A DNA stretch of 27,500 nt from a virus: the IMG/VR virus record IMGVR_UViG_3300034418_007637, positions 1 through 27,500 of that record. One strand, written 5' to 3'. Under the pieces are notes generated by a model. That model did no database searches and had not been told where the DNA came from. It saw nothing but the letters and a program-made list of their open reading frames with translations. The first letter of the stretch is position 1, and the number at the start of each line of letters is the position of its first letter. This document shows, piece by piece, positions 1,911 through 25,022 of the stretch. Position numbers and translations under genes: made by a program.

Positions 1911-3104
1911 TTATTTTAAATTCCATTGTGTACCGTTATAAACTAAATGCCAACTATCATAATTTGCGTTCATTGGCTGTGTTGCTGCTCCTAATATGTT
2001 ATTACCATTTCCATCTACTGTAACTGCATTACTACCACAACTACCAACACTGTCTATTATTTCTATTTCTCTATTTGTTGTTGGGCTTGCTTCTAATGTT
2101 ATTGTAAAAGCTCCTCCACTTGAATCTACATATATCCTTTGGTCTGTATTTACTATTGTATAATTAGCAGTCTTTGTTGAGCTGTTTTTTATTACTCCTT
2201 CTCTACTTAAGCAGTATAGTTTTTTAGCATCTGTAAATGCTTCTGTTGACAAACTAACTCCATTATACCAACATATAGAATCATCCTCAAACTTTACAGA
2301 ATATTGTCTATCTGTGTCCCATAAATGCCCTACTCTTCTGAATACACTACCACTACCTATATTGCTTGAAATAGGGTAAAATCTATATTCTGAATTAGTA
2401 CCAATCCAACTAACAATACCATATTTAGTTGTGTCAAATACATCTGCTGCTATTATATCTCCTACCTCATAGCTAGGGTCAGCCCCACTATCTGAATAAA
2501 CACCATTTTGTTCTGCTATTAAAGCCGCTATGTTATCTGTGCTTATAGCGCTATCATATAGTTGTATTTCATTTAACAAAAAGTTAGCACCCGAACTAGT
2601 TCCTGCTGCATCTCCAATAGCCATTGCATTTGCATTAGTATCTACTACTCCACTTTGTGTGTTATCTGTATCTGTGCTTACTCCATCAATATAAAGCGTA
2701 AGAACATCATTAGACCACACTAAGTCTATATCATAAAAAGTATCTGTTGTTAATGTTGCTGTTACTGTCGCTGTTCCACTTGCTACAAATAAATTAGCAG
2801 TTAATACATTTGTGGTGTAGTTATAATTAAAGCCTATTTGACTTACTTTACCGTATATTGATTTTGTGCCTGTTCCTGTTTGTACTTTTACAGCTAAATG
2901 AACAGATATGGCAGCCTCTCCATCAAATAAATCCTTGCTTGTTAGTGTTATTTTATCCGTAGTAGCATTAAATACAGCATCATAACCAACTCTAGTAGAA
3001 GCAGCTATTGTAATATTGCTTCCTGTTCCATTGTTGCCATTTTCACTATAATCTCTTATAGTAGTTGCGCTATTCTCGTTAAAATTATATATCAATCCAG
3101 CCAT
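1911..3104 (-). CDS. LamG-domain tail fibre / receptor-binding protein
   Basis: Residues 1 to about 205 form a concanavalin/LamG-type jelly roll. Visible pieces are LIYNFNENSATTIRDYSENGNNG at the start, an FDGEAAISVHLAVK strand, LTLYIDGVSTDT, and a NEIQLYDSAIS ending, all typical of Laminin_G_3. A linker domain (about 205-300) follows. The C-terminal part (about 305-397) resembles a domain shared by many phage fibres, with a TITLEASPTTNREIEIID segment and a closing WHLVYNGTQWNLK. LamG folds often bind sugars, so this protein probably contacts a host surface glycan. It lies between the hub-like protein and the final virion protein. Function is inferred from domain and position. Confidence 0.75.
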   Translation of the reverse strand: MAGLIYNFNENSATTIRDYSENGNNGTGSNITIAASTRVGYDAVFNATTDKITLTSKDLFDGEAAISVHLAVKVQTGTGTKSIYGKVSQIGFNYNYTTNVLTANLFVASGTATVTATLTTDTFYDIDLVWSNDVLTLYIDGVSTDTDNTQSGVVDTNANAMAIGDAAGTSSGANFLLNEIQLYDSAISTDNIAALIAEQNGVYSDSGADPSYEVGDIIAADVFDTTKYGIVSWIGTNSEYRFYPISSNIGSGSVFRRVGHLWDTDRQYSVKFEDDSICWYNGVSLSTEAFTDAKKLYCLSREGVIKNSSTKTANYTIVNTDQRIYVDSSGGAFTITLEASPTTNREIEIIDSVGSCGSNAVTVDGNGNNILGAATQPMNANYDSWHLVYNGTQWNLK

Positions 3105-7873: not shown

Positions 7874-8275
7874 TTATGTTAAAGCTATATAAGTTAATTC
7901 TCCAGTTCCTTGAAATTCAACACTAAATGTAGCAGATTCTTCTACTCCTCCAGACTTCTCTAAAGATGTTAAATAAGCCATTCCTTGCTCATATTCCTCT
8001 CCTGATGTGTTTGTTGAAATTCTTACACTAACTTGACTTCTATCTCTCCAGATAGCTGCTAAGTCATTAAATCCGTAAGCTGATTCTAAGTCAATAAATC
8101 CTTCTGCTGATGCAGACCAATCTCTCATTCCTTCTAATGATTCTTGATAACCTCCTGAATCTTTACTTGATGCATCTCTTACTGAATGGTTTCTTGTGAA
8201 GCTGGTAGATGTACAGTCAGCCACTTTAGTTCCTCCGATGTATATTTTTATCTCGGTAGCATTTTTAATTGCCAT
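7874..8275 (-). CDS. Major tail tube protein
   Basis: The 133-aa protein resembles TP901-1-type major tail proteins: a short N-terminal beta strand (EIKIYIGGTKVADCTS), a central GYQESLEGMRDWSASAEGFI segment, and a C-terminal beta pair ending SATFSVEFQGTGELTYIAL. It forms the hexameric rings of the non-contractile tail tube. It precedes the chaperone pair and is preceded by its own candidate promoter at 8319, fitting a protein needed in many copies. No sheath gene accompanies it. Confidence 0.85.
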   Translation of the reverse strand: MAIKNATEIKIYIGGTKVADCTSTSFTRNHSVRDASSKDSGGYQESLEGMRDWSASAEGFIDLESAYGFNDLAAIWRDRSQVSVRISTNTSGEEYEQGMAYLTSLEKSGGVEESATFSVEFQGTGELTYIALT

Positions 8276-8293
8276 ATCTTAAATTTTTGTACC

Positions 8294-8326
8294 CTATTAC
8301 TTAATAGAGTTGGTTTTACAAATATA
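8294..8326 (-). promoter_or_regulatory. Candidate promoter with palindromic leader for tail tube
   Basis: The complement of 8319-8326 reads TATATTTG (TAnnTTTG -7 box). Positions 8294-8307 form the palindrome CTATTACTTAATAG, which would lie just inside the transcript, before the tail tube ATG at 8275. The -33 element is unclear. The layout (box, then palindrome) resembles that at 14547-14579. Confidence 0.45.
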
Positions 8327-8327
8327 A

Positions 8328-8630
8328 TTATTTTTTATCTTTATTACTTGTTTTAGGCTTAGTTTCTTTTTCAAGTTCTTTTTCAGCCTCTAACTCGATT
8401 CGCTTTTTCTCTTTAGCCGCTTCGATTTTAGCTTGTTTTTCTCTTTGTTCTTCTTGAAATCTCTCTTTAGCTTTAGATGTTTTTATCTGCTCTTTTTCAG
8501 ACTGCATTAAACTTCTAGCGTTGCCTTGATTAATTAAGTTGTTACAAAAGTCATCTGTGCCTTCCATTATTAAGCCAGCCTTCTTTTTAACTCCTCTCAT
8601 CTCTATATCTTTTATCAATAGTACTTGCAT
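8328..8630 (-). CDS. Hypothetical protein with charged coiled coil
   Basis: The first 40 residues form a small ordered domain (VLLIKDIEMRGVKKKAG, then EGTDDFCNNLINQGNA), similar in style to short phage proteins found near head-tail genes. From about residue 43 the rest is a Lys/Glu-rich coiled coil. It lies between the tail terminator and tail tube genes. It may be a minor assembly factor. I do not recognise a named family. Confidence 0.6.
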   Translation of the reverse strand: MQVLLIKDIEMRGVKKKAGLIMEGTDDFCNNLINQGNARSLMQSEKEQIKTSKAKERFQEEQREKQAKIEAAKEKKRIELEAEKELEKETKPKTSNKDKK

Positions 8631-8636
8631 AATTTA

Positions 8637-9023
8637 TTATTTTACCAGCCTAAACGTATAGGACTGCATTATTAAAAATATTCGGTCTGCATCTGCATAA
8701 CCAAATTCTTCATCATTATATTTTACTGATTGTATATTTAAACTTTGTACCGTTCCAGAGTATCTATCTAAAACATCCCTTACTGCATCTGCTAATACTT
8801 TAACCGTTTCTGGGTTTTCGTGCCATACTTCTACGTGGTAAGTAATAACATCTAAAGGGCTTACTCCATCCTTTATATTGTGAGGCTCTAAAGTTTCTTG
8901 TGTATAAACTATATAAGGAGCTACAACTTGCTCAATAGCCATAAAAGGATAAATACGGTTAGATACATACCCACTTACAGTTGCATCGTTTGAAAGTAAA
9001 TTATATATTGCTTTTCCTATCAT
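8637..9023 (-). CDS. Tail terminator / tail completion protein (DUF3168)
   Basis: The 128-aa protein matches the DUF3168 (gp17-like) pattern: an N-terminal AIYNLLSNDATVSGYVSNRI motif with IYP, a central PYIVYTQ strand, YHVEVW and a C-terminal QSYTFRLV strand. Members form the ring that ends tail growth and joins tail to head. It overlaps the HK97 gp10-like gene by four bases and precedes the tail tube, the expected order. Confidence 0.85.
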   Translation of the reverse strand: MIGKAIYNLLSNDATVSGYVSNRIYPFMAIEQVVAPYIVYTQETLEPHNIKDGVSPLDVITYHVEVWHENPETVKVLADAVRDVLDRYSGTVQSLNIQSVKYNDEEFGYADADRIFLIMQSYTFRLVK

Positions 9024-9478
9024 ATACTATCTATTTGTTTTTGTATTTGACTGGCTATTTTTTCTGCTAAAGATTCGCCTATCCTTCTTCTTACCGCTGG
9101 CTCTGACTTCTTAACTACTCTTGGTACTGGGTTTGTATTTCTAACAAATCCATCTCCCCTTGTCTTATGTGATAATAAAGCTAAGTGATGATACCAAGCA
9201 CCCTCCCCATCATTTTGTCCCTTAGTTCTTGAAAATTTAAAGAAAACACCAGCCATAAATGTTTTTCTATCGCTATTTTTCATTAGCTTAGTTTTTAAAG
9301 ACCTTTTTAATTCTCCCTTATCTTTTGGTAGTTTTGTCTTTATTTCTTTTGATACGGTGGTAGCACCTTTCTTTAATGATGAATTAACAAGCCTACTAGC
9401 TATACTTTGCCTTTCTACTTTTAAAAGTAAACGGTCTAATTTAGCTCCATTTTCTAATTTTATGCTTAACCCATCCAT
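9020..9478 (-). CDS. HK97 gp10-like neck/tail component
   Basis: The 152-aa basic protein has the HK97 gp10 layout: a helical N-terminus (KLDRLLLKVERQSIASRLVN), the KKGATTVSKEIKTKLPKDKGELKRSLK core, an exposed AWYHHLALLSHKT region and a C-terminal helix with arginines. Such proteins act at the head-tail junction during assembly. It sits between head closure and tail terminator genes, as in HK97-like phages, and overlaps each by one to four bases. Confidence 0.82.
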   Translation of the reverse strand: MDGLSIKLENGAKLDRLLLKVERQSIASRLVNSSLKKGATTVSKEIKTKLPKDKGELKRSLKTKLMKNSDRKTFMAGVFFKFSRTKGQNDGEGAWYHHLALLSHKTRGDGFVRNTNPVPRVVKKSEPAVRRRIGESLAEKIASQIQKQIDSI

Positions 9479-9798
9479 TACGTTTGCTGTAATTTAGAAC
9501 ACATTAAAATCATTCCTTGTTGTCTTTGTATTTCTTTTATGTCCTCTATTTTATAATAATCTCCATTGTAATAAACTCTCATTTGATTTGTTACAGTAGA
9601 AAACCATCTTGTTTTAAATTCTACTATCCTTGATGTAGTACGGTTTTTATCATCTGTATTTTCACCTCCAGTCTTATGTACAAAACTAGCCCAACAAGCT
9701 TTATGAACAGTCCAACTCAAAGACCTAAAACCCGAAGCACCTATAACTTCTGACTTTACCTCTATGTTTATTCTCTTATCTAAACGTCCACTTTTCAT
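9478..9798 (-). CDS. Head closure / head-tail adaptor protein (SPP1 gp16-like)
   Basis: The 106-aa protein fits the phage head-tail joining family: it begins SGRLDKRINIEVKSE, has the W...KACWASFVHKTGGE segment, then RIVEFKTRWF and VYYNGDYYKIEDIKEI, ending in a strand. Members plug the portal after packaging and form the tail docking surface. Its ATG overlaps the stop of the embedded glycosyltransferase gene (9795-9798). Confidence 0.85.
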   Translation of the reverse strand: MKSGRLDKRINIEVKSEVIGASGFRSLSWTVHKACWASFVHKTGGENTDDKNRTTSRIVEFKTRWFSTVTNQMRVYYNGDYYKIEDIKEIQRQQGMILMCSKLQQT

Positions 9799-10472
9799 AA
9801 ATCAACTATTGAATCTATTTGCTTTGTTTCTAATTCTTTTACTGCTTCTTCAAATGTTACCTCATCCCCTGATAATATCTTGTAATCCCAAATGTTAACA
9901 TCGCTTTTAATATCTATTAAACATCCAAAGCCTACATCTATTATATGAGCTACATACTTCTCAAACTTCTTCATACTGTTATTATCTAAACCTACTTGAA
10001 TCTTATCGTAAATATCTCCTTTCTCTAATTCTCTTTCTAATATATCCCTTTTAATACATCTTCCTGCTCCTATTAATATCTTATAATCAAAATTCTTAGC
10101 CTCTTTACTTACTGAATCTAAAAATGTTACTTTACTTATTCCTAATATTGGAGTTTCATTTTCCATATAAGGCTCATAAGTTTTTAATAGTCTTTCTGTT
10201 ATTATATCATCATCTCCTAAATTCATCAAATAGTCAAAAGGATATTTAACAGCTTCTCTTATTCCTATATTCATTTTAGTTCCTAGACAATCATTAGGAG
10301 CATTTACATATTTAAACCCCCTATCAAATGCAGCAACTTTAGCCCATTGCTCACTAACTATACAAAGAACGTCTATATCGTAACTCTTTTGTAACTTCTT
10401 TAGATTATCTAAACAAATTAGAGTTATCTTTTCTCTTTTCCAAATCGGTAATAATACTAATATCTTAGCCAA
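9795..10472 (-). CDS. GT-A type glycosyltransferase embedded in the head-tail operon
   Basis: The 225-aa protein starts with a Rossmann-like strand (ILVLLPIWKRE) and carries a DxD-type metal/nucleotide-sugar site, LGDDD at residues 85-89, after YLMN. These are hallmarks of GT2-like GT-A enzymes, which move a sugar from an activated donor. It has no membrane segment. It is inserted between the head-tail connector and head closure genes, joined by an 8-base and a 4-base overlap. It shares general features with the enzymes of the glycan cluster at 14592-19912. A role in glycosylating virion proteins or a host glycan is possible; the substrate is not shown. Confidence 0.8.
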   Translation of the reverse strand: MAKILVLLPIWKREKITLICLDNLKKLQKSYDIDVLCIVSEQWAKVAAFDRGFKYVNAPNDCLGTKMNIGIREAVKYPFDYLMNLGDDDIITERLLKTYEPYMENETPILGISKVTFLDSVSKEAKNFDYKILIGAGRCIKRDILERELEKGDIYDKIQVGLDNNSMKKFEKYVAHIIDVGFGCLIDIKSDVNIWDYKILSGDEVTFEEAVKELETKQIDSIVDL

Positions 10473-11370: not shown

Positions 11371-12573
11371 TTATGTTACAATTTGTAGCATATGTTTAAC
11401 AGCTGAAGTGTCCATTAAACCAGAATCAGTACGTAAGAATCCAACAAATACTACTTGGTCAGCAGTCATATTAATTTCATCTGAACGTCTAATTGATAAA
11501 TCCATTACATCTCTAATGTAGAATTTCTTGAAATCTCCATAAAGAACAGATTTAGTATAATCAGCCATAGTTGCCATATCTTGATTAACTGTGTATGGGT
11601 CACCATCAATAGTTGAAGGCGCTCCACCTACAACTCCTGGTTGCCATAATGATTGATTAGCACTTGCTAAAGCTACTTGCTTTAATTTATTTAAAGTGTT
11701 GTCGTTAAACATCCAAGAACCATTCATTCTGTAAGCTGGGTCAACTGAATGTTTAAGGTCTAACAATTCTAAGAAAGTAGTTGTTGTACTTGCTGCTGAT
11801 AATTTACCAAAGCTAGAACCTGTTACTACTCCTTCTGGTTGAGCAGAACCTGTACCAGTTGTATAAGCTGTATTAGTACCTCTTGCCATTCTCTCAACAA
11901 ACAATTCTCTTACATATTGCTCAATATTAAAGCTAGAATCTTGAATTAACTCGTTAGGAACAATAATCTTACCAGTTGTGTACTTGTAAGCATTCATTTG
12001 TTTAGTTCCTAAAGTAAATGCTGATTCACTTGCTCCAGTATTAATAGACAATAAAGAAGCTGAATTACTTGTATCATCACTTGTTGGAAAGTCTAAGTTA
12101 TTCCCTGTTGCTGTTGGTATAATTCTTGCAACACTTCTAACCCCTCCGAAATCTTGTAAAGACTTAATGTATTCAGAAGCTAAAGAAGTTGGAATAAAAT
12201 AACCACCACCAGTTGTTGTAACTGTTTGCGCTCTGATAAATTGCTTATCTTCATTTGTTAAAGCATCTCTCAAATATCGGTCATAAACTTCTACTTCTCT
12301 TTTTTGGTCTCCTAATACTTGCTCAATATCTTTTTGGCTTCTTTCAGCTACCTCTAAGTTTCTTTCTTCATCTTGAGATTCTTTCTCATTTAAAGTTTCA
12401 AAACGTCTAATGTTTTTTTCTAAGTTAGTATCTCGTGCTGCTAACTCATCAAATTTCACTAAATCGTCTGCGTTCCATTCTGCCTTATCTCTGTTTCTGT
12501 CGGCTATGGATGTCATTTCATCAACTATCTGACCTCTTTCGTCTTTTAGTTTTTTTACATCATATTTACTCAT
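11371..12573 (-). CDS. Major capsid protein, HK97 fold
   Basis: The 400-aa protein has a charged, coiled-coil N-terminal delta (scaffold) domain of about 100 residues, then the HK97 core. Recognisable are TTTGGGYFIPTSLASEYIKS (start of the mature part), GGVRSVARIIPTATGNNLDF, ESAFTLGTKQMNAYKY, a NELIQDSSFNIEQYV E-loop/helix region and the C-terminal VVFVGFLRTDSGLMD. The prohead protease encoded just before would remove the delta domain. The gene is framed by twin hairpins in its leader and by a strong terminator. Confidence 0.93.
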   Translation of the reverse strand: MSKYDVKKLKDERGQIVDEMTSIADRNRDKAEWNADDLVKFDELAARDTNLEKNIRRFETLNEKESQDEERNLEVAERSQKDIEQVLGDQKREVEVYDRYLRDALTNEDKQFIRAQTVTTTGGGYFIPTSLASEYIKSLQDFGGVRSVARIIPTATGNNLDFPTSDDTSNSASLLSINTGASESAFTLGTKQMNAYKYTTGKIIVPNELIQDSSFNIEQYVRELFVERMARGTNTAYTTGTGSAQPEGVVTGSSFGKLSAASTTTTFLELLDLKHSVDPAYRMNGSWMFNDNTLNKLKQVALASANQSLWQPGVVGGAPSTIDGDPYTVNQDMATMADYTKSVLYGDFKKFYIRDVMDLSIRRSDEINMTADQVVFVGFLRTDSGLMDTSAVKHMLQIVT

Positions 12574-12646: not shown

Positions 12647-13288
12647 TTATTTAGTTTGTTGTCTCAAACTTATCTTTCTCAAAGTTAGTATTTTTTCTCG
12701 ATAATTTGGAATTTTATTTGGTGTTTCTTCTTTTTCTTCCAATATTGTTTCGTTAACTGTTAAATCTCTAAAATTTTCTGGTACTTCACATTCTACTACT
12801 TCATCACTAGAACGACCTATTCCAACTGTTGGGTCTGCTGGAACTCCTACAATAGAAATTTCATAAGGCGACCAATCAGTACTTCTATAAGTTGGTGCTT
12901 CTCCTTCTTTTTCTTCTTCTAATGTTAGGTTTCTTAATTCATACCCAAATGATACATTCTTTCTTATACCATCTAAAACATCTTGATATATTTCTTGTCC
13001 TCTTTGGCTTTGTGAGAATTTAATTTTAGCCATTCCCCTACCATTTTCTATCTTAGCGCCTAAAACAACTCCTATCTGCCCTCCTTTATGGTCTTCTAAT
13101 ACTGCTGCTGAATTATTCAATCTTGACAAATCAACGCTCTTAGGGTTGTGGTCTAATATCTCATTACCAAAGTATCTCATTACTGGTAATTCTGAACTGA
13201 ACGACAATTCAACCGTTCTATCATCTTCGTTTACTTCTCCTCTCTCAAAGTTAAGTGTTCTGTATTGTTTCTTTATCTGTGTTTTCAT
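12647..13288 (-). CDS. Prohead protease (HK97 family, peptidase S78)
   Basis: The 213-aa protein has the S78 catalytic set: His67 in AVLEDHKGG, Ser113 in KNVSFGYEL, and a Glu143-containing WSPYEISIVGVPAD strand. It would cleave the capsid delta domain during prohead maturation. The gene overlaps the portal gene by 38 bases and precedes the capsid gene. The C-terminal 50 residues are charged and are probably self-cleaved. Confidence 0.9.
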   Translation of the reverse strand: MKTQIKKQYRTLNFERGEVNEDDRTVELSFSSELPVMRYFGNEILDHNPKSVDLSRLNNSAAVLEDHKGGQIGVVLGAKIENGRGMAKIKFSQSQRGQEIYQDVLDGIRKNVSFGYELRNLTLEEEKEGEAPTYRSTDWSPYEISIVGVPADPTVGIGRSSDEVVECEVPENFRDLTVNETILEEKEETPNKIPNYREKILTLRKISLRQQTK

Positions 13289-14531
13289 CTTTTTTAGTTA
13301 TTGCGGCTTGATTTGAGCCTTTTTCATCTATTGGAGCTGTGTTTGTTTGCATCCAATAAGTATCTCCACCCTTATATGGATTCATATTTTCTAATTTTCT
13401 TACATCATTAGCACTTAAAAATCCGTTTTGTATTCCTACCTTATGTGCTTCGTATCTTGTTTTAATATCTCCCCTTAAAAGTCCTTCCATATTAAACTGT
13501 GGATAAACTTCTGATTTCTCTTGTTCTCTAAATAGTTTTCTATGTAATTCTTGTTCTATGTTTGTTACTAATGGAAGTATAGAATGTTTTACTAAGTTTA
13601 AATCTTGTGCATCTATATTAGTGAAAGTTGCGTGTGATAAGTCTGCAATCATATGTGGTGGTAATGTAAACCATCTTGCTATATCCTCAATAGAAAATCT
13701 TTTAGTTTCTAAGAATTGTGCTGAATCTGGGGGGATAGATATTTGCTGATACTTTAAACCCGCCTCTAATATTGCTGTGTTATGGTTGTTTTCTGAGCCT
13801 GCGTGTCTTTTATTCCAAGATTTAGATAATCTTTCAAATGACTTCTCATTTAATACTTGGTCTGTGCTTAATACTCCGTTTGTGTTTGCTCCGTTCTTAA
13901 AGAATGATGCTCCAAATACTTCTGTGGCTTTTGCTGAACCTAAGTTATCTTTTGCGTGGTCTATTACACTTTGCCCTATTACATTATTCCCTTTACCTCT
14001 AAAGTGTAGCATTTGGTATTGGTCTGCTTTTATCTTTGTGCCATCATCTAATAAAATGTAGTACATTAAAACCCCCTTTTCTATCTCAACCTTTGCTATA
14101 TTATTTGGGTGTATTGGCATAATAGATATAGGGCGATAATTACCACCTTTCTTAAAATCTATTAAACAATAAGCATTACCCCATAAAAGTATATGAGGAA
14201 TAATTATTTGCCTCCATACAAATGAAGTCATTAATTGATTAGGCTGCATTGCTAACAGCTTATAAATAGGATGTGATTTATCTTTTATTTTAGTGTTGCC
14301 ACTTTCTCTTATAATGTGGATTGGTAAAGATGATATTGCATTGGCATAAACTGTAACAGCAGCATAAACACCACTCAAAGCCATTGAGTTCTCTTTTGTT
14401 ATCCTTACACCTGATGCTGTATTAGTACCTAAAAAGGCATCGTACCACTTGCCAGACTCAAAATCATCTTGAGCCTGTGTTCTTTGTTCAGACCCTTGAT
14501 TGATGTTAAAAATTCTTTGGAAGAAACCCAT
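13251..14531 (-). CDS. Portal protein (HK97 family)
   Basis: The 426-aa protein matches HK97-type portals: an N-terminal Ser-rich entry with ENSMALSGVYAAVTVYANAI, SLPIHIIRE, LLWGNAYCLIDF, the QMLHFRGKG strand with IGQSVIDHAK, and IEDIARWFTLPPHMI. It forms the dodecameric DNA entry channel. It is the first gene of the late operon; no terminase gene stands before it, which is unusual for this family. Confidence 0.92.
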   Translation of the reverse strand: MGFFQRIFNINQGSEQRTQAQDDFESGKWYDAFLGTNTASGVRITKENSMALSGVYAAVTVYANAISSLPIHIIRESGNTKIKDKSHPIYKLLAMQPNQLMTSFVWRQIIIPHILLWGNAYCLIDFKKGGNYRPISIMPIHPNNIAKVEIEKGVLMYYILLDDGTKIKADQYQMLHFRGKGNNVIGQSVIDHAKDNLGSAKATEVFGASFFKNGANTNGVLSTDQVLNEKSFERLSKSWNKRHAGSENNHNTAILEAGLKYQQISIPPDSAQFLETKRFSIEDIARWFTLPPHMIADLSHATFTNIDAQDLNLVKHSILPLVTNIEQELHRKLFREQEKSEVYPQFNMEGLLRGDIKTRYEAHKVGIQNGFLSANDVRKLENMNPYKGGDTYWMQTNTAPIDEKGSNQAAITKKDENTDKETIQNT

Positions 14532-14591: not shown

Positions 14592-15251
14592 TTAACTATT
14601 GAAATATTTATTTACTATTTCTGTTTGATAATCACAATTATTAGCTTCTACTTCATATATCGTGTTAGGAACGTGCTGGTATTTAAAATAATCTTCTGAA
14701 TGTGGTAAGGCTAAAATCATTTTATTTTGTTTATGAGCTTCTATTCCTATCCAAATATCAGCCATATTTGCTCTTTTGAATATATCGAAACTTGGTTTAA
14801 AATAATCTGTATGAAATCCCATTACCCCTGTTCCACCAAATTGAACATTTCTTAATTCTTTTTCTTCTCCTAAACACCTATGTTTTATTGCTGGAGATTT
14901 ATAGTAAGATTTAATAGGAAACTTATCAAAACTTCTAGCGTGGTGTGTTACTATAAAACAATCATCTATTTCTTTAATCATATCATAAACGTATGTTGGT
15001 GGGTAAATCAAATCATCATCCCCAGTAAAATAATACCCTTTAAAATCTTCTAAAAACATAAATTTTCCAGCATCTCCATAACGGTTATCTGAAAAAACTA
15101 CGTTTACTTTTTCGTGTGGGTATGGATTAGCTTCATAGTTATTTAAGCATAAATTAACTACATCTACTTGGTCTATTATAGAATCAATAGTTTTTACTAA
15201 GTTACTTTCTCTTTCAGATAATGAGGCTATATTAAAACTTATTTTATCCAT
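14592..15251 (-). CDS. GT-A type glycosyltransferase
   Basis: The 219-aa protein begins with a strand and SLSERESNLVKTIDSIIDQV, the usual donor-fold start of GT2-like enzymes. It has a DxD-like site GDDD at residues 77-80, after KGYYFT. FGGTGVMGFHTDYF, near the middle, resembles an acceptor-side loop. It has no membrane span. It is the last gene of the nine-gene glycan run and overlaps the methyltransferase gene by eight bases. The substrate is unknown. Confidence 0.75.
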   Translation of the reverse strand: MDKISFNIASLSERESNLVKTIDSIIDQVDVVNLCLNNYEANPYPHEKVNVVFSDNRYGDAGKFMFLEDFKGYYFTGDDDLIYPPTYVYDMIKEIDDCFIVTHHARSFDKFPIKSYYKSPAIKHRCLGEEKELRNVQFGGTGVMGFHTDYFKPSFDIFKRANMADIWIGIEAHKQNKMILALPHSEDYFKYQHVPNTIYEVEANNCDYQTEIVNKYFNS

Positions 15252-15849
15252 TTATTAAATATGTTTTACGCCCGTTATTTTTAGTGCAATCATCTTTAGA
15301 GTGGTTTATAATACATTCAACTTTACAATCTTTAAAAAACTCTAACTGTGGTTTACCCTCTACATCGTTATTAGTTTCTAATATTATAGTTGCTCCAGTA
15401 TCTAAACACTTTTGATATATTTCTCTCCAATTCTTTACCCAACTTCCTATACTTAATATAAATATAATATCATAAGCATTTGTTATCTCAAAATTTTCCT
15501 TATCAAAGTCTAATGTGATAAAAGATAAATTTCTTAACCCTAATATGTCGCTTATATTATTTGCAGCCTCTATACAAGTTGCATCGTAATCTATTCCAAC
15601 GCCTAATTTAATTTCTGGTAAATGATGTAACATAGCACCAACATTACATCCTAAGTCTAATACTCTTTTGTCTTTAAAGTCAACAAACTTTTTAATCTCA
15701 TCAAGTCTTTGCTTCGGGTTTCTTTGCCCTTGTATATGTATCTCGCCAATATCGTAAGAATGATAACCATAATTTGTTCTATTGTTCCATCCGTTGTAGT
15801 GGTATTTACCTACTGTTTTTTTTAGTTCGTTTTCAATCTCTAATTTCAT
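15244..15849 (-). CDS. SAM-dependent methyltransferase (class I)
   Basis: The 201-aa protein has the SAM-binding motif I, VLDLGCNVGAM (63-73), and motif II acidic strand GVGIDYD (83-89), then a DIIFILSIGSW strand at motif IV. It probably methylates a sugar or a glycan end, because its neighbours are glycosyltransferases, but small-molecule or protein targets are possible. It overlaps the ParB-like gene by 17 bases and the last glycosyltransferase gene by eight. Confidence 0.8.
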   Translation of the reverse strand: MKLEIENELKKTVGKYHYNGWNNRTNYGYHSYDIGEIHIQGQRNPKQRLDEIKKFVDFKDKRVLDLGCNVGAMLHHLPEIKLGVGIDYDATCIEAANNISDILGLRNLSFITLDFDKENFEITNAYDIIFILSIGSWVKNWREIYQKCLDTGATIILETNNDVEGKPQLEFFKDCKVECIINHSKDDCTKNNGRKTYLING

Positions 15850-16183
15850 AATAACAATCTTTTAAATCTATTCCGTTATATTTTAATAAGGCTATCCTAT
15901 GGCAGCCATCGTTAATAAGGTATTTTTGTATTTCTCCGTTCCACTCAAGTTGGATTGGTTGCATTTTTGATAAGCTAAATTCCTCTTGTAATTCTTTATA
16001 TATTTTTTCGCTATGCTCTGGTTGGTTTTTAACAAGCTCGTTGTAGTCTTTATAATCTCCACTTACTAATGTTTTAAAATGTACCGAATTTTCAATACTA
16101 AATATGTAATGAGGATAAATAAAAGCCTCACTATCTTTACTTTTTTCTGTTAAATGTTTTACTCTTATATCGTTATAGTCCAT
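15833..16183 (-). CDS. ParB-like domain protein
   Basis: The 116-aa protein ends in YLINDGCHRIALLKYNGI, the typical (N/D)GxHR signature of ParB/sulfiredoxin-like domains (residues 89-106). Proteins of this type are NTP-binding or NTPase and are also found in glycan clusters beside methyltransferases. Chromosome partition is unlikely because there is no ParA and no HTH domain. It overlaps both neighbours by 11-17 bases. Function is unknown. Confidence 0.6.
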   Translation of the reverse strand: MDYNDIRVKHLTEKSKDSEAFIYPHYIFSIENSVHFKTLVSGDYKDYNELVKNQPEHSEKIYKELQEEFSLSKMQPIQLEWNGEIQKYLINDGCHRIALLKYNGIDLKDCYYEIRD

Positions 16184-16817
16184 ACTTTTTTAGTAATCCT
16201 TTTATATCGTGTGTCTTTGTATTAAAGTTGCTTTTATCGTGTATTCTGTGGTGAACCAATATATTAGTAACATTTATAAATGTACAATTTTTTTTCATTA
16301 ATGACAACCATAAATCAAAATCTTCTATCCCATCTATTTCTTCATTCCAACCATTTAATACTTCTCTACGTATTAAAGCTGATGTATTAGCTATTTGGTT
16401 TATCCCTCTGTTTGATTTTTCAACTATATCATTATTGCTTATAAATAATTTTGGCATCCCTAAATCTTCTCCATCTTCATTAATATATTCTATCATACTT
16501 CCAACAACATCTGAATCATCTAAATAAGGTAATTGAATTTCTAACTTATTTAACATCCATATATCATCATCATCTTGGATAGCTATGTAATCTCCTTTAG
16601 CTTCTTTTAATAACTTGTTTAATGTTCTACCCTTTCCTGCTTCTTTATACTTAAATATCCTTATCCTAGAATCTTCTATTTTAGGTATTATTATCTCACA
16701 ATCATTAAAGCCTATTAATAATTCTATATCTTTATAAGTCTGATTTAATACAGATAAAACAGCCTCTTTAAAATAGGTTGGGTTAGGGTTTCTTGTTGCT
16801 AGTAATACGCTAATCAT
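16173..16817 (-). CDS. GT2 family glycosyltransferase
   Basis: This 214-aa protein is a clear GT2 enzyme: it starts MISVLLATRNPNPTYFKEAV, then LSVLNQTYKDIELLIG, has the metal/donor site QDDDD at residues 81-85 and the catalytic ED in GIEDFDLWLSLM (165-166). It would transfer one sugar from a nucleotide donor with inversion. It overlaps the GT6 gene by four bases. There is no membrane span, so it acts in the cytoplasm or at the inner membrane face. Confidence 0.92.
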   Translation of the reverse strand: MISVLLATRNPNPTYFKEAVLSVLNQTYKDIELLIGFNDCEIIIPKIEDSRIRIFKYKEAGKGRTLNKLLKEAKGDYIAIQDDDDIWMLNKLEIQLPYLDDSDVVGSMIEYINEDGEDLGMPKLFISNNDIVEKSNRGINQIANTSALIRREVLNGWNEEIDGIEDFDLWLSLMKKNCTFINVTNILVHHRIHDKSNFNTKTHDIKGLLKKYGL

Positions 16818-17473
16818 TCCCTTATTTGTTTATGGTTCTTATCAAGCGCTAATATTTTGCTATTCTCGTTTTGCTCTTTCTCTGGTGTGCAATAATCTCT
16901 ACCTAATATAATACTTGGTCTTACTTCTGTTAAGTATTTATTGTAGTGTGTTTCATCGTGCCATCTTGCTACTATTCCGTTATTATTATCTTTATCTACT
17001 CTGCTTGCTATTTCTTCTGACATCTTTAAATAAGCCTCACTTGTACCACCTTGAAAACCACCACAACAATAAGGGTTTATTAAATTAGTATCTTCTAAAT
17101 ATGCTGTTGACTTTTCGTTTAATTCGTAAGTATTTTTTTTGCTTCTGCTTTCTGAATATGGATGTGTTATTGCTGTTAGTCCATCTCCTAGTATTTCATC
17201 TCCTACTTCTCCAACTACTAACATATCTGCATCTAAATAAAATAAGTAATCCATTTTAGATAATACATCTTTTTGTTTTATGAATTGGTGGTATCTCATT
17301 AACGTAGGATAAGGAAAAGGCTCGTGCTTCATATAAAATCCCATCATCTTATCAGAAAAATAATGTATAAAAACATTATGATTAACTAAAAAATATTTCT
17401 TAATAGAAGCCTCTAAAGCTGGTACAAACTTTGTATAACTTGCTGTGGCTATTATTAATATTCCTACATTCAT
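16814..17473 (-). CDS. GT6 family (ABO blood-group type) alpha-1,3-Gal/GalNAc transferase
   Basis: This 219-aa protein has every mark of family GT6: donor motif LDADM (DAD at 81-83, matching the human DVD), the substrate-selecting loop NPYCCGGFQGGT (133-144, matching YLGGFFGGS of the A enzyme), and WHDETHYNKYL (171-181, matching WHDESHLNKYL with catalytic Glu174). The family adds Gal or GalNAc in alpha-1,3 linkage, with retention, to a galactose acceptor; ABO enzymes need an alpha-1,2-fucose on it. It lacks the transmembrane stem of animal forms, as do bacterial members. The neighbouring GT11 could make its acceptor. Donor choice cannot be read safely; glycine at the position of human Gly268 leans to GalNAc. 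Confidence 0.9.
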   Translation of the reverse strand: MNVGILIIATASYTKFVPALEASIKKYFLVNHNVFIHYFSDKMMGFYMKHEPFPYPTLMRYHQFIKQKDVLSKMDYLFYLDADMLVVGEVGDEILGDGLTAITHPYSESRSKKNTYELNEKSTAYLEDTNLINPYCCGGFQGGTSEAYLKMSEEIASRVDKDNNNGIVARWHDETHYNKYLTEVRPSIILGRDYCTPEKEQNENSKILALDKNHKQIRE

Positions 17474-18063
17474 ATTTTATTTAATTCGTTATTTAGGCAC
17501 TTAACATAATCTTTTTCAGTAATAGGCATAGACATATAAGTACTACCATTATCTACACTAACACAAAAATTATGATTATTAACACCAAATTGTATTATAA
17601 CAAACTTATCATTTTTTGTGTAAAACCTATCATATCTACAAATATTTTTAACCCCCTTAATAATTATCTTATCTTTTTTTTTATAGTAAGAATCTCCAAA
17701 TATATTAAAACAAGGGTTCATAGCATTTAAAAAACCTATACTACCTATTTCCCAGCCATTTTCTACCAACCATCTTTCAAACCCAAAAACACCAGTGGCT
17801 ACTCCAGTAGAATTCTTTTTTATTATTTCATATTCTTTAGAGTTGAAGTAATTATAAAACTTTAAACTAACCTCATCCTTTGGTATTTCTTTATATGTTT
17901 CATAAGCCTTACCTACTTTATAGTTATTAAAACAAACATAACCACAATACCCTCTAAATAAATAGGTCTTTTTATTATTCTTAATAACACAGTCCTTTTT
18001 AGGCTTCCAGTAATAACCACCACCTTTTATATTTATAATATGCTCATTTATAAAACCACCCAT
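17470..18063 (-). CDS. Unrecognised protein of the glycan cluster
   Basis: The 197-aa product lies between GT11 and GT6 and is coupled to both (16-base and 4-base overlaps), so it probably acts in the same pathway. It is rich in Tyr, Lys and Asn. I recognise no known motif. A stretch near residues 82-112 (IIKKNSTGVATGVFGFERWL then GSIGF) faintly recalls the S/TG...G and GFxx elements of GT29/GT42-like sialyltransferase folds, but this is weak. It contains a run of nine A (lysine codons). It has no signal peptide or membrane span. Confidence 0.65.
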   Translation of the reverse strand: MGGFINEHIINIKGGGYYWKPKKDCVIKNNKKTYLFRGYCGYVCFNNYKVGKAYETYKEIPKDEVSLKFYNYFNSKEYEIIKKNSTGVATGVFGFERWLVENGWEIGSIGFLNAMNPCFNIFGDSYYKKKDKIIIKGVKNICRYDRFYTKNDKFVIIQFGVNNHNFCVSVDNGSTYMSMPITEKDYVKCLNNELNKI

Positions 18064-18695
18064 CCTTTACAATATAAATCTGATACATTAACATTTTCTT
18101 TACTTCCTGCAAACCACTTATCTGGTGCTATTACTATTTTATTAGGGGTTGGATTTAACCAAGCACCCCACCAACTGAATGATGAATTACTAATTATGTT
18201 GTGTTCGCAACGGCTCATTAATTCTAAATCTTCTCTTTCGTTTCCGTTTGATATTTCAAAAGGTAAATTCTCACTACACCATTGTTTATCATCTGTGAAT
18301 ACTATAAAATCATTATACCCTAAGTCTTTAAAATACTTAACTGCTTTTTTAATATACTCTAAAGTAACTACTGGATGACATTCTATATTACAATAATCCC
18401 CACGCCTTACGTGAATACTAATTTTATTTATTTGTTCTCTATTCCAATCCTTTGTAAAGTGTTTTATTATTTCTTCTTTGCAATGGCTAAAATATTTTTC
18501 ACTTTGAAAGTAACCACTTAAACAAAGGTTTTCCATATATGGAATTTCTCTATACTCAAAACAAGGCTCTTTATATATTGGTAATCCTTGTAAATTAAAT
18601 TCATAAGGCATATTATGTTTTAAAGCATAACCTATTGTGGCTGCCTCTTGAAACATTTGATTACCTAACCTACCTACGTAATTACAACTTACCAT
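18048..18695 (-). CDS. GT11 family alpha-1,2-fucosyltransferase
   Basis: All GT11 motifs are present: GRLGNQMFQEAA (8-19), IHVRRGDY (94-101) which is the donor-binding motif, FTDD (133-136), EREDLELM (153-160) and SNSSFSWWGAWLN (169-181). The enzyme transfers fucose from GDP-fucose to a terminal galactose in alpha-1,2 linkage, making the H-type structure. At 215 residues it is shorter than usual bacterial members (about 280-300), mainly in the region between the first and second motifs, but no motif is missing. It follows the GT25 gene with a 14-base overlap. GDP-fucose would come from the host, as no synthesis genes are visible. Confidence 0.94.
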   Translation of the reverse strand: MVSCNYVGRLGNQMFQEAATIGYALKHNMPYEFNLQGLPIYKEPCFEYREIPYMENLCLSGYFQSEKYFSHCKEEIIKHFTKDWNREQINKISIHVRRGDYCNIECHPVVTLEYIKKAVKYFKDLGYNDFIVFTDDKQWCSENLPFEISNGNEREDLELMSRCEHNIISNSSFSWWGAWLNPTPNKIVIAPDKWFAGSKENVNVSDLYCKGWVVL

Positions 18696-19287
18696 ATCTT
18701 AAATGTTGGTTATCAGTTTCCATTTGTACTAAATCGCTATACCCTGCTTTTTGCCAAGTTAACTCTGGGTATGATATAAAACAATTATTTTCTTTTTGAA
18801 ATTCTGTATAAAGAACATCTACTTTATAGGCTCTTTTTTCTAAATGCTTTATTAGCTTCTCTATTGAGTTAATATTTACTAAATAAGATTGTGTGCATAA
18901 AACATTATTAGCTATCTTTAAATGGTCCGAATAGTCTTTTATAGCATCTTCCCATAATAAAGAACCACCAAGAAAAAATAAATCCCAGTCTTTTGGTAGT
19001 TCGCATAATCTCTTAGTAAAGTTTTCCCAAAAGTTATCTCCAAATACACAATCATCTTCTAATATTAAAGCGTGTCCCTCTCCTTGTAATGCTAGTTTTA
19101 ATACTTCTAAATGACTTTCATAACACCCTAAAGCACCTTTCATTATCTTGCCTTCTACATTTGGGTATTTCTCCCTACCGTTTATTGCTTCAAATAATTT
19201 AAAATCTAACTTAACCTTATTACATTCTTTTGTAATATGTTGTAGTCTATCCTTTCTGTGCTTTAAGTTAATTACGTAAACCTGCAT
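18682..19287 (-). CDS. GT25 family glycosyltransferase (LPS galactosyltransferase type)
   Basis: The 201-aa protein shows the GT25 signatures: YVINLKHRKDR at residues 4-14, KGALGCYESHLEVLKLA at 50-66 and LILEDDC at 74-80, the metal-binding EDD. Bacterial members such as LgtB/LgtE and collagen-modifying types mostly add beta-linked galactose to an LPS or lipid acceptor. Here it would give the galactose on which the GT11 enzyme acts. It overlaps its neighbours by 14 and 20 bases. Galactose is the typical donor, but this is inference. Confidence 0.92.
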   Translation of the reverse strand: MQVYVINLKHRKDRLQHITKECNKVKLDFKLFEAINGREKYPNVEGKIMKGALGCYESHLEVLKLALQGEGHALILEDDCVFGDNFWENFTKRLCELPKDWDLFFLGGSLLWEDAIKDYSDHLKIANNVLCTQSYLVNINSIEKLIKHLEKRAYKVDVLYTEFQKENNCFISYPELTWQKAGYSDLVQMETDNQHLRYGKL

Positions 19288-19912
19288 AGTTGTTCATCTT
19301 TGAAATATGACCTTTGCGATGTTCACAAAGTGTGTCTTTTGCGTGGTACATATTATATCCTTTACTTAATAAATTTCTACTTATCTGCCCCCCTACTCCA
19401 CTACCTAATCTTTTTTCTCCTTCCCATCTATCTGGGTTTATATATCTTATGTTTACTTCTTCAAAAAACTTTCTTTCAGCTATAAAACATAAGTCATTCC
19501 ATTGTGATAATATAACATCTCCTTTTATTTTTGGTTGTAGATTAGTCCAACAAGGGGCTTTAATTCTATCATCACTCAACAAAGATAAACAAATCTTGCT
19601 ATTATCCAAAATTGATTCGTATAATTCTATTGATTTTTTTACAAAGTCTTTACATAACACAACATCATCGGGAATAAATATATAATAATCGTAATCGTAT
19701 TCATTTAATATAAAGTTAAATATTCTTTGAAACTTTCTCCAAGCGTTTTTCTTTCCGTAGTTTTTGCTAAACTGATAAAAATAAAAATCTCCAGTTAATC
19801 TAAAGTTGCTATTATCATCCCATACTACAACATCATATCCCTTTAATTGAGATAATGTTTCCTCTAGCATTTCTTTTCTATCGTAGCTTGTTATGTTAAT
19901 TAGAACATTCAT
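19268..19912 (-). CDS. GT2-like glycosyltransferase
   Basis: The 214-aa protein starts MNVLINITSYDRKEMLEETL, has VVVWDDNSN (28-36), and a donor/metal site IPDDV at 80-84, fitting a GT2-like GT-A fold. A later DRWEGEKRLGSGVGGQISRN segment is acceptor-like. No membrane span. It is the first enzyme of the glycan operon and overlaps the Fis-like gene by 17 bases. Substrate unknown. Confidence 0.72.
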   Translation of the reverse strand: MNVLINITSYDRKEMLEETLSQLKGYDVVVWDDNSNFRLTGDFYFYQFSKNYGKKNAWRKFQRIFNFILNEYDYDYYIFIPDDVVLCKDFVKKSIELYESILDNSKICLSLLSDDRIKAPCWTNLQPKIKGDVILSQWNDLCFIAERKFFEEVNIRYINPDRWEGEKRLGSGVGGQISRNLLSKGYNMYHAKDTLCEHRKGHISKMNNYAGLRN

Positions 19913-21287: not shown

Positions 21288-22106
21288 TTAGGTAAACAAA
21301 TTATTCATTAATGGCTCTAATCTCTTTTCAATTATATCACAGTATTCTTTTGATATTTCGCTACCTATCCATTTTCTATTGGCACATATCGCAGTTTTTG
21401 CAACTGTACCACTCCCCATAAATGGGTCATAAATTAAATCGTTTTCATTGCTCCAACTTAAAATATGGTAGTAAGCTAAATATTCAGGAAATGTTGCAGG
21501 ATGCTCAAACGTAATTTTGTCTTTACTTCCTACCATAAACCCAGCAGGAATATACCAAATGTTTTCAGCAAGGCAATACATATCATCCTGTGCGTTTTGT
21601 AATCTTAAAACAGCTTTTTCATTTGGGTTTAATGTTTCACCATTTTTATTTCTGTATGTTTTCGATGCAACATTATCTGAAAATGATTTTTCGCTTTTCA
21701 ATTGTTTTAGTACCGGGTTAAATGTATTTGCTTTTCCTTTACTAAAAACAAACATATATTCAAATGCCTGTTGGTATCTTACATTTGACGGGAAAGGGGA
21801 AACTCTTTTGTAAATCATAGTATCGTGTAAATTAAAACCACATTCCATAAAATACAAAGCCTGTTTAAAACTTGTACCTGATTCACTACCATCTTTTGTA
21901 GCATCACCAACAACCCAAACAACATATCCGCCATTTTTTGTTACCCGGTATAATTCTTTCGCTACATTTTCAAAGTCAAAAGAATAACCGTTATAGTTTC
22001 TTAAATCATCATATGGCGGTGATGTTACAGTCAAATCAATAAAACAATCAGGCATCTTTGCCATTGTTTCCAAGTTACTCTCATTATAATTTACATTCGT
22101 TTCCAT
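21288..22106 (-). CDS. DNA methyltransferase (N4-cytosine/N6-adenine type)
   Basis: The 272-aa protein has catalytic motif IV TSPPYD (28-33) before the SAM-binding motif I DPFMGSGT (227-234), the beta-class order. A conserved GGYVVWVVGD strand and KRVSPFPSNVRYQQAFEYMF segment lie between. TSPPY points to N4-cytosine, though N6-adenine is possible. With no restriction enzyme beside it, it is probably an orphan enzyme protecting phage DNA from host restriction. It belongs to an island with the GP88-like gene, flanked by unusual repeats, and uses codons a little less AT-rich than its neighbours, which suggests recent import. Confidence 0.92.
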   Translation of the reverse strand: METNVNYNESNLETMAKMPDCFIDLTVTSPPYDDLRNYNGYSFDFENVAKELYRVTKNGGYVVWVVGDATKDGSESGTSFKQALYFMECGFNLHDTMIYKRVSPFPSNVRYQQAFEYMFVFSKGKANTFNPVLKQLKSEKSFSDNVASKTYRNKNGETLNPNEKAVLRLQNAQDDMYCLAENIWYIPAGFMVGSKDKITFEHPATFPEYLAYYHILSWSNENDLIYDPFMGSGTVAKTAICANRKWIGSEISKEYCDIIEKRLEPLMNNLFT

Positions 22107-24134: not shown

Positions 24135-24557
24135 CTACTCCACTTTTTTTGTATGATTGTTTATATGTCTAGTAAATGGTCTATTTTTACTCAAGGCGTG
24201 CCATCTACCAACCTTAACACAGTGTTTTACATTTTCAGATTGCGTACACCACTCTAAATTCTCTATTCTATTATCTTTTCTATCACTATTTATGTGGTTA
24301 ATAAATGGTTTATTTTCTGGGTTAGGTATAAATGCTTTTGCTATAATTCTATGTAACATAACACGCCTAGATTTACCCTTATTAGATAGTTTAATTCTTA
24401 GGTAGCCCAAACCATTATCTAATGGTTTTAAATAGTAACCATCCCTATATTTTAAATTACATCTTTTTAGGTTGCTAATTCTCTTGACTCTACCTAAATT
24501 AGATACTTTATAGATGCCCTCATATCCAACGACATCTTTCCAAATTTCTTTTGTCAT
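24135..24557 (-). CDS. NUMOD4-HNH homing endonuclease
   Basis: The 140-aa protein begins with a NUMOD4 domain (EIWKDVVGYEGIYKVSNLGRV, residues 4-24), then the HNH_3 core: VMLHRIIAKAFIPNP, NHINSDRKDNRIENLEWCT (about 88-106). The HNH histidines and asparagines are present. Such free-standing enzymes spread by cutting alleles that lack them. It lies between a structured leader (24589-24641) and the promoter region before the gene at 23950. No group I intron is visible. The C-terminal tail (KKVE) is short. Confidence 0.9.
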   Translation of the reverse strand: MTKEIWKDVVGYEGIYKVSNLGRVKRISNLKRCNLKYRDGYYLKPLDNGLGYLRIKLSNKGKSRRVMLHRIIAKAFIPNPENKPFINHINSDRKDNRIENLEWCTQSENVKHCVKVGRWHALSKNRPFTRHINNHTKKVE

Positions 24558-24647: not shown

Positions 24648-25022
24648 TTAAGAATTATTTTTTATATATTCATTCAAAGCCTTTAATAATATCTCTTTTT
24701 CATAATTACTCCATTTCATAGTTTGATTAGCTTTTAACCTTAATGCGTTATACCAATCTTCCCCCCTTTGTTCTTTTGCAAATTCTATAAATTCTAATGG
24801 GCTTTTATGAGCAGACCAACTACCAAATGTATGATGTGCCACACATAGACAATAACCATTTGTTAAATCCCATCTTACAGAACGGTTAGACCTACTATAA
24901 ACGTGGTGTGAATTTAATGTTGTTTCTTTACCGCATTTTTCACATTTAAACCCAGCCTTTACTTTTATTGCTTTACTCCAAGCTTCATCTAATTTACCGT
25001 CTATTCCTTTTAGTTTTTTCAT
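24648..25022 (-). CDS. HNH endonuclease-like protein (NinG/Rap type)
   Basis: The 124-aa protein has CEKCGK (28-33), then NSHHVYSRSNRSVRWDLTNG (42-61) and CLCVAHHTFGS, the zinc/HNH arrangement of phage recombination nucleases related to NinG or Rap. The His-His pair and the WDLTN segment are typical. It lies in the replication gene run, as ninG does in lambda-like phages, which suggests a role in recombination of phage DNA. The closest named family is uncertain. Confidence 0.75.
   Translation of the reverse strand: MKKLKGIDGKLDEAWSKAIKVKAGFKCEKCGKETTLNSHHVYSRSNRSVRWDLTNGYCLCVAHHTFGSWSAHKSPLEFIEFAKEQRGEDWYNALRLKANQTMKWSNYEKEILLKALNEYIKNNS

Follow-up and report, generated by a model that had tools for sequence, protein, structure and literature searches.

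A glycosyltransferase cassette with GT11 and GT6 homologs beside the virion genes of a probable Bacteroidota phage

The virus record IMGVR_UViG_3300034418_007637 of IMG/VR, a linear stretch of 27,500 nucleotides (nt) that is probably a fragment and was analysed whole (hereafter the window), poses the question of whether a phage can assemble a glycan akin to the ABO/H blood-group antigens and, if so, where such a glycan would be placed. An initial annotation had described three neighbouring glycosyltransferases (GTs) of the families GT25, GT11 and GT6 as an operon whose gene order mirrors the steps of ABO antigen synthesis, with one gene of no recognised family separating GT11 from GT6. The analysis reported here partly supports that interpretation: the genes belong to a larger cassette which runs into the virion structural genes and which may encode an assembly line for a glycan, probably produced along with the virion. 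The four genes at the centre of the question are the following.

18682..19287, minus strand: GT25 family glycosyltransferase, 201 amino acids (aa) (PF01755, E 2.5e-21; phrog_2835, E 5.5e-19)
18048..18695, minus strand: GT11 family fucosyltransferase, predicted alpha-1,2, 215 aa (PF01531, E 5.3e-25; phrog_2644, E 2.4e-48)
17470..18063, minus strand: w4, orphan open reading frame (ORF) at the GT11/GT6 junction, 197 aa, found only in the window and its twin contig
16814..17473, minus strand: GT6 homolog, retaining alpha-1,3-galactose (Gal)/N-acetylgalactosamine (GalNAc) transferase of the DxD type, 219 aa (PF03414, E 3.2e-28; phrog_3317, 2e-42)

The three enzyme genes are complete, full-length minus-strand ORFs at the place where they had been described, and their family assignments hold. 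Pfam hidden Markov model scores exceed the curated cut-offs so far (98.9 against 25 bits for GT6, 88.7 against 23.9 for GT11 and 76.9 against 24 for GT25) that the matches are not due to chance. Key motifs are intact in GT11 (GRLGNQMFQ, HVRRGDY and SNSSFSWWGAWL) and in GT6 (DAD at residues 81-83, the donor loop CCGGFQGG with its GGFQGG motif, and WHDE/WHDET). In phmmer searches GT6 matches Bacteroides ovatus GT6a over its full length (9e-28) and the human ABO transferases at about 1e-19; its match to NCBIfam NF041524 (E 7.9e-45) nevertheless falls under the family cut-off. GT25 had first been described as of the galactose type; the phage family that it matches best is labelled glucosyltransferase, which is an annotation only. 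The intervening gene w4 is indeed an orphan, with no match in Pfam, PHROGs, NCBIfam or 50,697 INPHARED phage records. It is shared with the twin contig (IMGVR 3300007640_007720), where this set of genes encodes proteins that are 98.5-100% identical, and is absent from two sister phages, L280 and L022 (IMGVR 3300038315_000387). In these the slot between GT11 and GT6 (about 7810-8000 in L280 and about 2720-2846 in L022) holds a different short, YEVGDKIEFKTDIGLKIMTI-like ORF, which makes the junction a small variable site.

The operon as first described was placed correctly, but its coordinates cover only part of a nine-gene cassette that reads from 19912 to 14592 in the order w1, GT25, GT11, w4, GT6, w6, w7, w8 and w9. 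The genes overlap by 4-20 nt as far as w9, after which a 60-nt gap leads to the portal, protease and capsid genes. The remaining cassette genes and the relevant structural genes are listed below.

19268..19912, minus strand: w1, GT-A-fold glycosyltransferase-like protein, 214 aa, conserved, directly upstream of the variable region
16173..16817, minus strand: w6, GT2 family glycosyltransferase, 214 aa (PF00535, E 1.4e-16)
15833..16183, minus strand: w7, small conserved protein with a DGCHR motif, 116 aa (L280 homolog 50%)
15244..15849, minus strand: w8, S-adenosylmethionine (SAM)-dependent methyltransferase, 201 aa (PF13847, E 1.1e-8)
14592..15251, minus strand: w9, GT45-like protein (KfiA/heparosan synthase N-acetylglucosamine (GlcNAc)-transferase domain), 219 aa, directly upstream of the portal gene
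13251..14531, minus strand: portal protein, start of the structural module (PF04860, E 4e-101; phrog_12)
12647..13288, minus strand: head maturation protease (phrog_4523, E 3.9e-51; phrog_80, E 6e-9)
11371..12573, minus strand: HK97-type major capsid protein, candidate acceptor (PF05065, E 2.6e-54; phrog_10)
9795..10472, minus strand: w13, GT-A-fold glycosyltransferase-like protein, between the head-tail adaptor and head closure genes
7874..8275, minus strand: major tail protein, candidate acceptor (phrog_1407, E 3.7e-29)

Three further proteins extend the set of likely sugar transferases. The AlphaFold model of w13 is well defined (pLDDT 88.9, pTM 0.89) and Foldseek ranks a glycosyltransferase from Leptospira (6p61; E 3.5e-9, prob 1.00, TMq 0.66) first among its structural matches. 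No Pfam match of w9 exceeds the cut-off; a three-sequence profile of the protein matches heparosan synthase B in its GlcNAc-transferase domain (E 9e-23) and KfiA (E 1.7e-15) in the PDB, but w9 is a stand-alone protein without the partner domain that transfers glucuronic acid. For w1, which has no Pfam family match, a GT-A-like fold is proposed with modest confidence, given a pLDDT of 75.9 with models that spread widely and best Foldseek matches to SpsA, POMGNT1 and GnT-I (E 8e-8 to 3e-6, TM about 0.5); homologs at 45-63% identity occur in L280 and in the related contigs L364, L365 and L375. The GT2 enzyme w6 resembles TuaG/EpsE with a score under the NCBIfam cut-off. Phages that are otherwise unrelated (L036, L039, L040, L041, L054 and L094) encode w6 relatives (about 48-53% identity) no more than about 3 kb downstream of GT6, which makes GT6-GT2 a second recurrent pair. 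The small protein w7 has no significant family match in Pfam or NCBIfam, and homologs of w8 at about 72% are present in L280 and L373. No membrane-helix-like segment was found in any cassette protein.

Comparison with related contigs separates a fixed core from a variable insert. L280 has the order w1-GT25-GT11-GT6-GT2-w7-methyltransferase-w9-portal at 50-73% identity and lacks w4, while L022 retains GT11-GT6-GT2-w9-portal and lacks w4, GT25, w7 and w8. GT11 is 68-69% and GT6 66-68% identical to the homologs in both sisters, GT25 is 62% identical to that of L280 and has no homolog in L022, and in the GT6 phylogeny the window protein branches with those of L022 and L280 in a single clade (support 100/98). 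The w9 gene precedes the portal gene in L022, L280, L364, L365, L367, L370, L373 and L375; in L364 and L365 it follows directly after w1, and in L367 and L370 it is likewise present without the insert. GT25, GT11, GT6, GT2, w7 and w8 therefore constitute an insert that varies among these phages and precedes w9. A profile search identified relatives of w13 in 16 viral contigs, counting the twin and L022. Wherever a contig spans the sites, w9 lies before the portal gene and w13 after the head-tail adaptor gene, the latter in about a dozen related contigs, so that both are GT genes of the virion structural module; no w9 match was seen in the remote L376. GT11 was not found in eight w13-family records, every one of them a fragment. 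Neither w9 nor w13 has a match in the 50,697 INPHARED records. The phage family and the core-plus-insert anatomy of its virion module are new, as is the quantified coupling of GT6 and GT11 in bacteria, fusions included, that is described below.

The host of the window phage is probably a member of the Bacteroidota. A Shine-Dalgarno-like motif precedes only 2 of 34 checked genes, and such motifs are expected to be scarce in Bacteroidota genes. The near relative L280 is a 39-kb contig binned in a Saprospiraceae metagenome-assembled genome (MAG). The host call draws on both observations, the MAG being a limited basis as a phage contig may be mis-binned. The portal protein was also tried as a guide to the host and set aside as uninformative, its matches being scattered across many phyla.

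The initial annotation had regarded a phage encoding both the H and the A/B step as notable and mentioned a single phage GT6, from a cyanophage. The phage meant may have been the Prochlorococcus cyanophage P-SSM2, yet this genome already holds the whole triplet of GT11, GT6 and GT25 in one cluster together with a GDP-mannose dehydratase and epimerases. GT11 and GT6 are paired in seven further cyanophage isolates (ACG-2014f, B23, DSL-LC02, S-CAM9, Bellamy, SynMITS9220M01 and S-8S56), with a short overlap in many of the pairs, and likewise in the single-cell virus AG-345-E15. Relatives of the window GT6 occur in 71 INPHARED records and those of its GT11 in 102, and one scan of IMG/VR returned 491 relatives of GT6. 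In two phages of 634-642 kb a distance of about 5 to 20 kb separates GT6 from GT11. In the 642-kb phage L032 (LR756502) the open frame that contains GT6 (8227-9828) is about 534 codons long and possibly a fusion. The viral GT6 do not form a single clade, 11 label changes being needed on the tree. The pairing is thus already in deposited phage genomes and is not new, although no paper discussing phage GT11 plus GT6 was found in the open literature (subscription literature lay outside the search). The cyanomyovirus clusters share with the window a co-oriented GT11 and GT6 in one cluster, which in the window are separated by w4 alone with all three genes overlapping, and several contain GT25. In other respects they differ: the cyanomyoviruses are T4-like with genomes of about 168-252 kb whereas the window derives from an HK97-type phage, their clusters lie near hli, psbA or tail-fibre genes whereas the window cassette adjoins the portal gene, and the window GT6 shares at most about 41% identity with theirs. 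Several of their clusters carry the GDP-mannose dehydratase and epimerases, none of which is in view in the window; GDP-fucose genes are however not constant among the cyanophage pairs, as none is annotated near the pair of B23.

The favoured reading of the window cassette, held tentatively and at a little short of an even chance, is that it attaches to a virion protein a glycan that is fucosylated and capped by GT6. The fixed core, consisting of w9 beside the portal gene, w13 among the head-tail genes and often w1, would start and extend this glycan, with the capsid, the tail or another virion protein as its most likely carrier, and the swappable insert with GT25, GT11, GT6, GT2 and the methyltransferase would add and vary its outer part. 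GT11 would add fucose (Fuc) to a terminal hexose, predicted to be an alpha-1,2 linkage on galactose, with GDP-fucose supplied by the host, and GT6 would then add GalNAc or Gal to the fucosylated galactose in alpha-1,3 linkage as a cap, giving an A/B-type tip. A virion protein is favoured as acceptor because of the location of the cassette in or just before the virion genes, the fixed positions of w9 and w13 and the lack of a membrane component. Virion glycosylation is reported for the mycobacteriophages Che8 and Rita, where glycans are found on the capsid protein and phage-encoded GTs are the candidate enzymes (PMC11256854). These are different phages with other hosts, and the GTs of the mycobacteriophage Maravista lie near the 3' genome end whereas those of the window adjoin the portal gene. 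The fuller proposal, that the capsid or tail in a family of Bacteroidota phages is glycosylated by the phages themselves through a constant GT core and a swappable outer cassette, which in the window would build a true A/B-type tip (GalNAc or Gal alpha-1,3-[Fuc alpha-1,2-]Gal), is doubtful in this complete form.

Several points weigh against a fucosylated A/B-type glycan on the virion. The record is an incomplete 27.5-kb fragment, and no GDP-fucose genes are present among its ORFs. The placement of the glycan on the virion is deduced from gene position, and the cyanophage clusters lie away from capsid genes, beside nucleotide-sugar enzymes. A GT11 enzyme may also be alpha-1,3-specific, as is HhFT2 (PMC4202792). 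Finally, GT11 is found at 28 of 33 viral GT25 loci without GT6 (at least 12 kb) compared with 47 of 63 for GT6, a base rate that is possibly overstated since the GT25 control profile was built from GT11-containing clusters.

As the cyanophage clusters with GT11 and GT6 occupy other genome positions and look like polysaccharide loci, a serious rival, possible if on the unlikely side, is that the cassette remodels a surface glycan of the host, such as lipopolysaccharide, O-antigen or a capsule precursor, during infection or lysogeny. GT11 and then GT6 would act on a lipid-linked host glycan and so mask a receptor and block superinfection. Such a role agrees with the polysaccharide loci in which bacterial GT6/GT11 pairs sit, for instance WbwK/WbnI of Escherichia coli O86 (PMC4202792), and with the GDP-mannose dehydratase, epimerases and many GTs of the cyanophage clusters. 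The Saprospiraceae MAG that contains L280 has a gmd gene (593.9 bits) and its sole GT6 and GT11 matches lie on the phage contig, which means that the phage would contribute a new step to its host. The window cassette however encodes no membrane protein, flippase, polymerase or GtrAB-type component, two of the core GTs are locked in the structural module of the family, and the cassette runs directly into the portal, protease and capsid genes.

Whichever acceptor is used, the likeness to ABO synthesis depends on GT11 providing the substrate of GT6. In IMG/VR, GT11 lies within 8 kb of 55 of 78 GT6 loci, always on the same strand and upstream in 52, and conversely GT6 is near 11 of 79 GT11 loci. 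Since GT11 is common in phage sugar clusters generally, co-occurrence in phages does not by itself tie it to GT6; as proof of a pathway it was dropped after the GT25 control, and the argument was rebuilt on bacterial loci. In bacteria GT11 lies within 8 kb of 54 of 80 GT6 loci and is directly adjacent in 25, with either gene first, and the two domains are joined in three ORFs (GT6-GT11 in L334 and L336, GT11-GT6 in L340). These ORFs span 7992-10712 in L334, 7998-9629 in L336 and 3774-5363 in L340, and their sources are Haliotispira prima, a Planctomycetota MAG and a Gastranaerophilales MAG. The base rate of GT11 anywhere in a genome is 26 of 248 Bacteroidota genomes, against which the 54 of 80 gives a binomial P of 6e-34 that serves as a guide only, as kinship is ignored and the 80 loci, among them the phage contig L280, come from many phyla whereas the base-rate sample is Bacteroidota. 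Both GT6-bearing genomes of that sample have GT11 nearby, in one case on the phage contig. At 5 of the 80 loci a GT25-like gene is in the vicinity. Coupling of GT11 and GT6 in bacteria is therefore supported.

Biochemical precedent points in the same direction. BoGT6a (PMC3961637) as well as WbnI and BgtA (PMC4202792) act on Fuc-alpha-1,2-Gal, and in E. coli O86 the GT11 enzyme WbwK and the GT6 enzyme WbnI, members of the same two families, act sequentially to form the B antigen (PMC4202792), albeit from a bacterial O-antigen locus whereas the window pair is in a phage structural module. In the window phage an H step by GT11 followed by an A/B step by GT6 is accordingly rated as fairly probable. 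That the two enzymes instead belong to a general phage glycosylation cluster, serving separate branches or acceptors with no H-to-A/B sequence and an ABO likeness at family level only, is unlikely. The ubiquity of GT11 in viral GT clusters regardless of GT6 would suit this alternative, as would the differing position of GT25 among phages, the atypical donor tripeptide QGC of some phage GT6 and the fact that family does not fix linkage, HhFT2 being an alpha-1,3 GT11 (PMC4202792). It is opposed by the bacterial adjacency and fusions in both orders, by the retention of the GT11-GT6 pair in L022 and by the acceptor specificity of the characterised BoGT6a, WbnI and BgtA (PMC3961637, PMC4202792). 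Of the pathway first proposed, the relation of GT11 to GT6 thus stands, upheld by the bacterial loci and the characterised enzymes, whereas the designation as an ABO pathway is not supported, given the other GT and GT-like proteins in the cassette and a GT11 that is possibly alpha-1,3. The equation of gene order with pathway order is not supported either, GT25 being upstream here, downstream in cyanophages and absent from L022.

The sequence of GT6 allows some prediction of its metal and donor use. The DxD motif is present in the window enzyme and in 99 of 102 distinct viral GT6 sampled, while bacterial GT6 are mostly NxN (49 versus 25 DxD). As DxD accompanies metal dependence in GT6 (PMC3961637), the window enzyme is predicted to be metal dependent, unlike BoGT6a, which is NxN and metal independent (PMC3961637). 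The donor tripeptide at residues 266-268 is Cys-Gly-Gly, in which Gly268 is as in A types. Among characterised tripeptides LGG belongs to the human A-transferase, AGG also confers A activity, MGA is found in B and HAA in alpha-Gal enzymes (PMC6351642); Cys266 matches none of the tripeptides tested in that study. CGG is nearer to the A-transferases than to the B or alpha-Gal enzymes and close to the tripeptides of BoGT6a (AGG) and human GTA (LGG), with which the window GT6 has the fold family and the WHDE region in common, so that the prediction leans towards a GalNAc donor. AGG is also the commonest viral tripeptide (73). At the acceptor-pocket position that is Trp356 in the alpha-Gal enzyme and Ala343 in the human A-transferase, the window GT6 has Ala in a C-terminal stretch aligned by eye, which is not used as evidence.

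That the GTs, partnered by the methyltransferase, hypermodify the bases of phage DNA to protect it from restriction is very improbable, for although the cassette contains a SAM-dependent methyltransferase and a DNA methyltransferase-like ORF with a TSPPY motif lies upstream of it (21288-22106), no hydroxymethyl-pyrimidine or deoxyuridine-modifying gene was recognised in the window, oligosaccharides are the known acceptors of GT6 and GT11, and the core GTs are in the virion module and not the replication module. Elsewhere in the window two ORFs (24135-24557 and 24648-25022) are HNH-like by eye, and an HNH protein identified by Pfam (804-1124) adjoins putative tail-fibre genes at the end of the record. 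One putative tail fibre (1911-3104) contains a LamG/ConA-like lectin domain (PF13385, E 3e-11), because of which the virion may both bind and carry glycans.

The adjacency and fusions of the two genes provide comparative evidence that bacterial GT6 enzymes generally depend on the products of GT11, and the cassette supplies small soluble GT11 and DxD-type GT6 enzymes which are directly testable. If glycosylation of the virion is the true function, phages would equip themselves with complex, blood-group-like glycans whose core is fixed and whose tip can be exchanged, and the surface identity or binding of the virion could be altered without any change to the coat protein.

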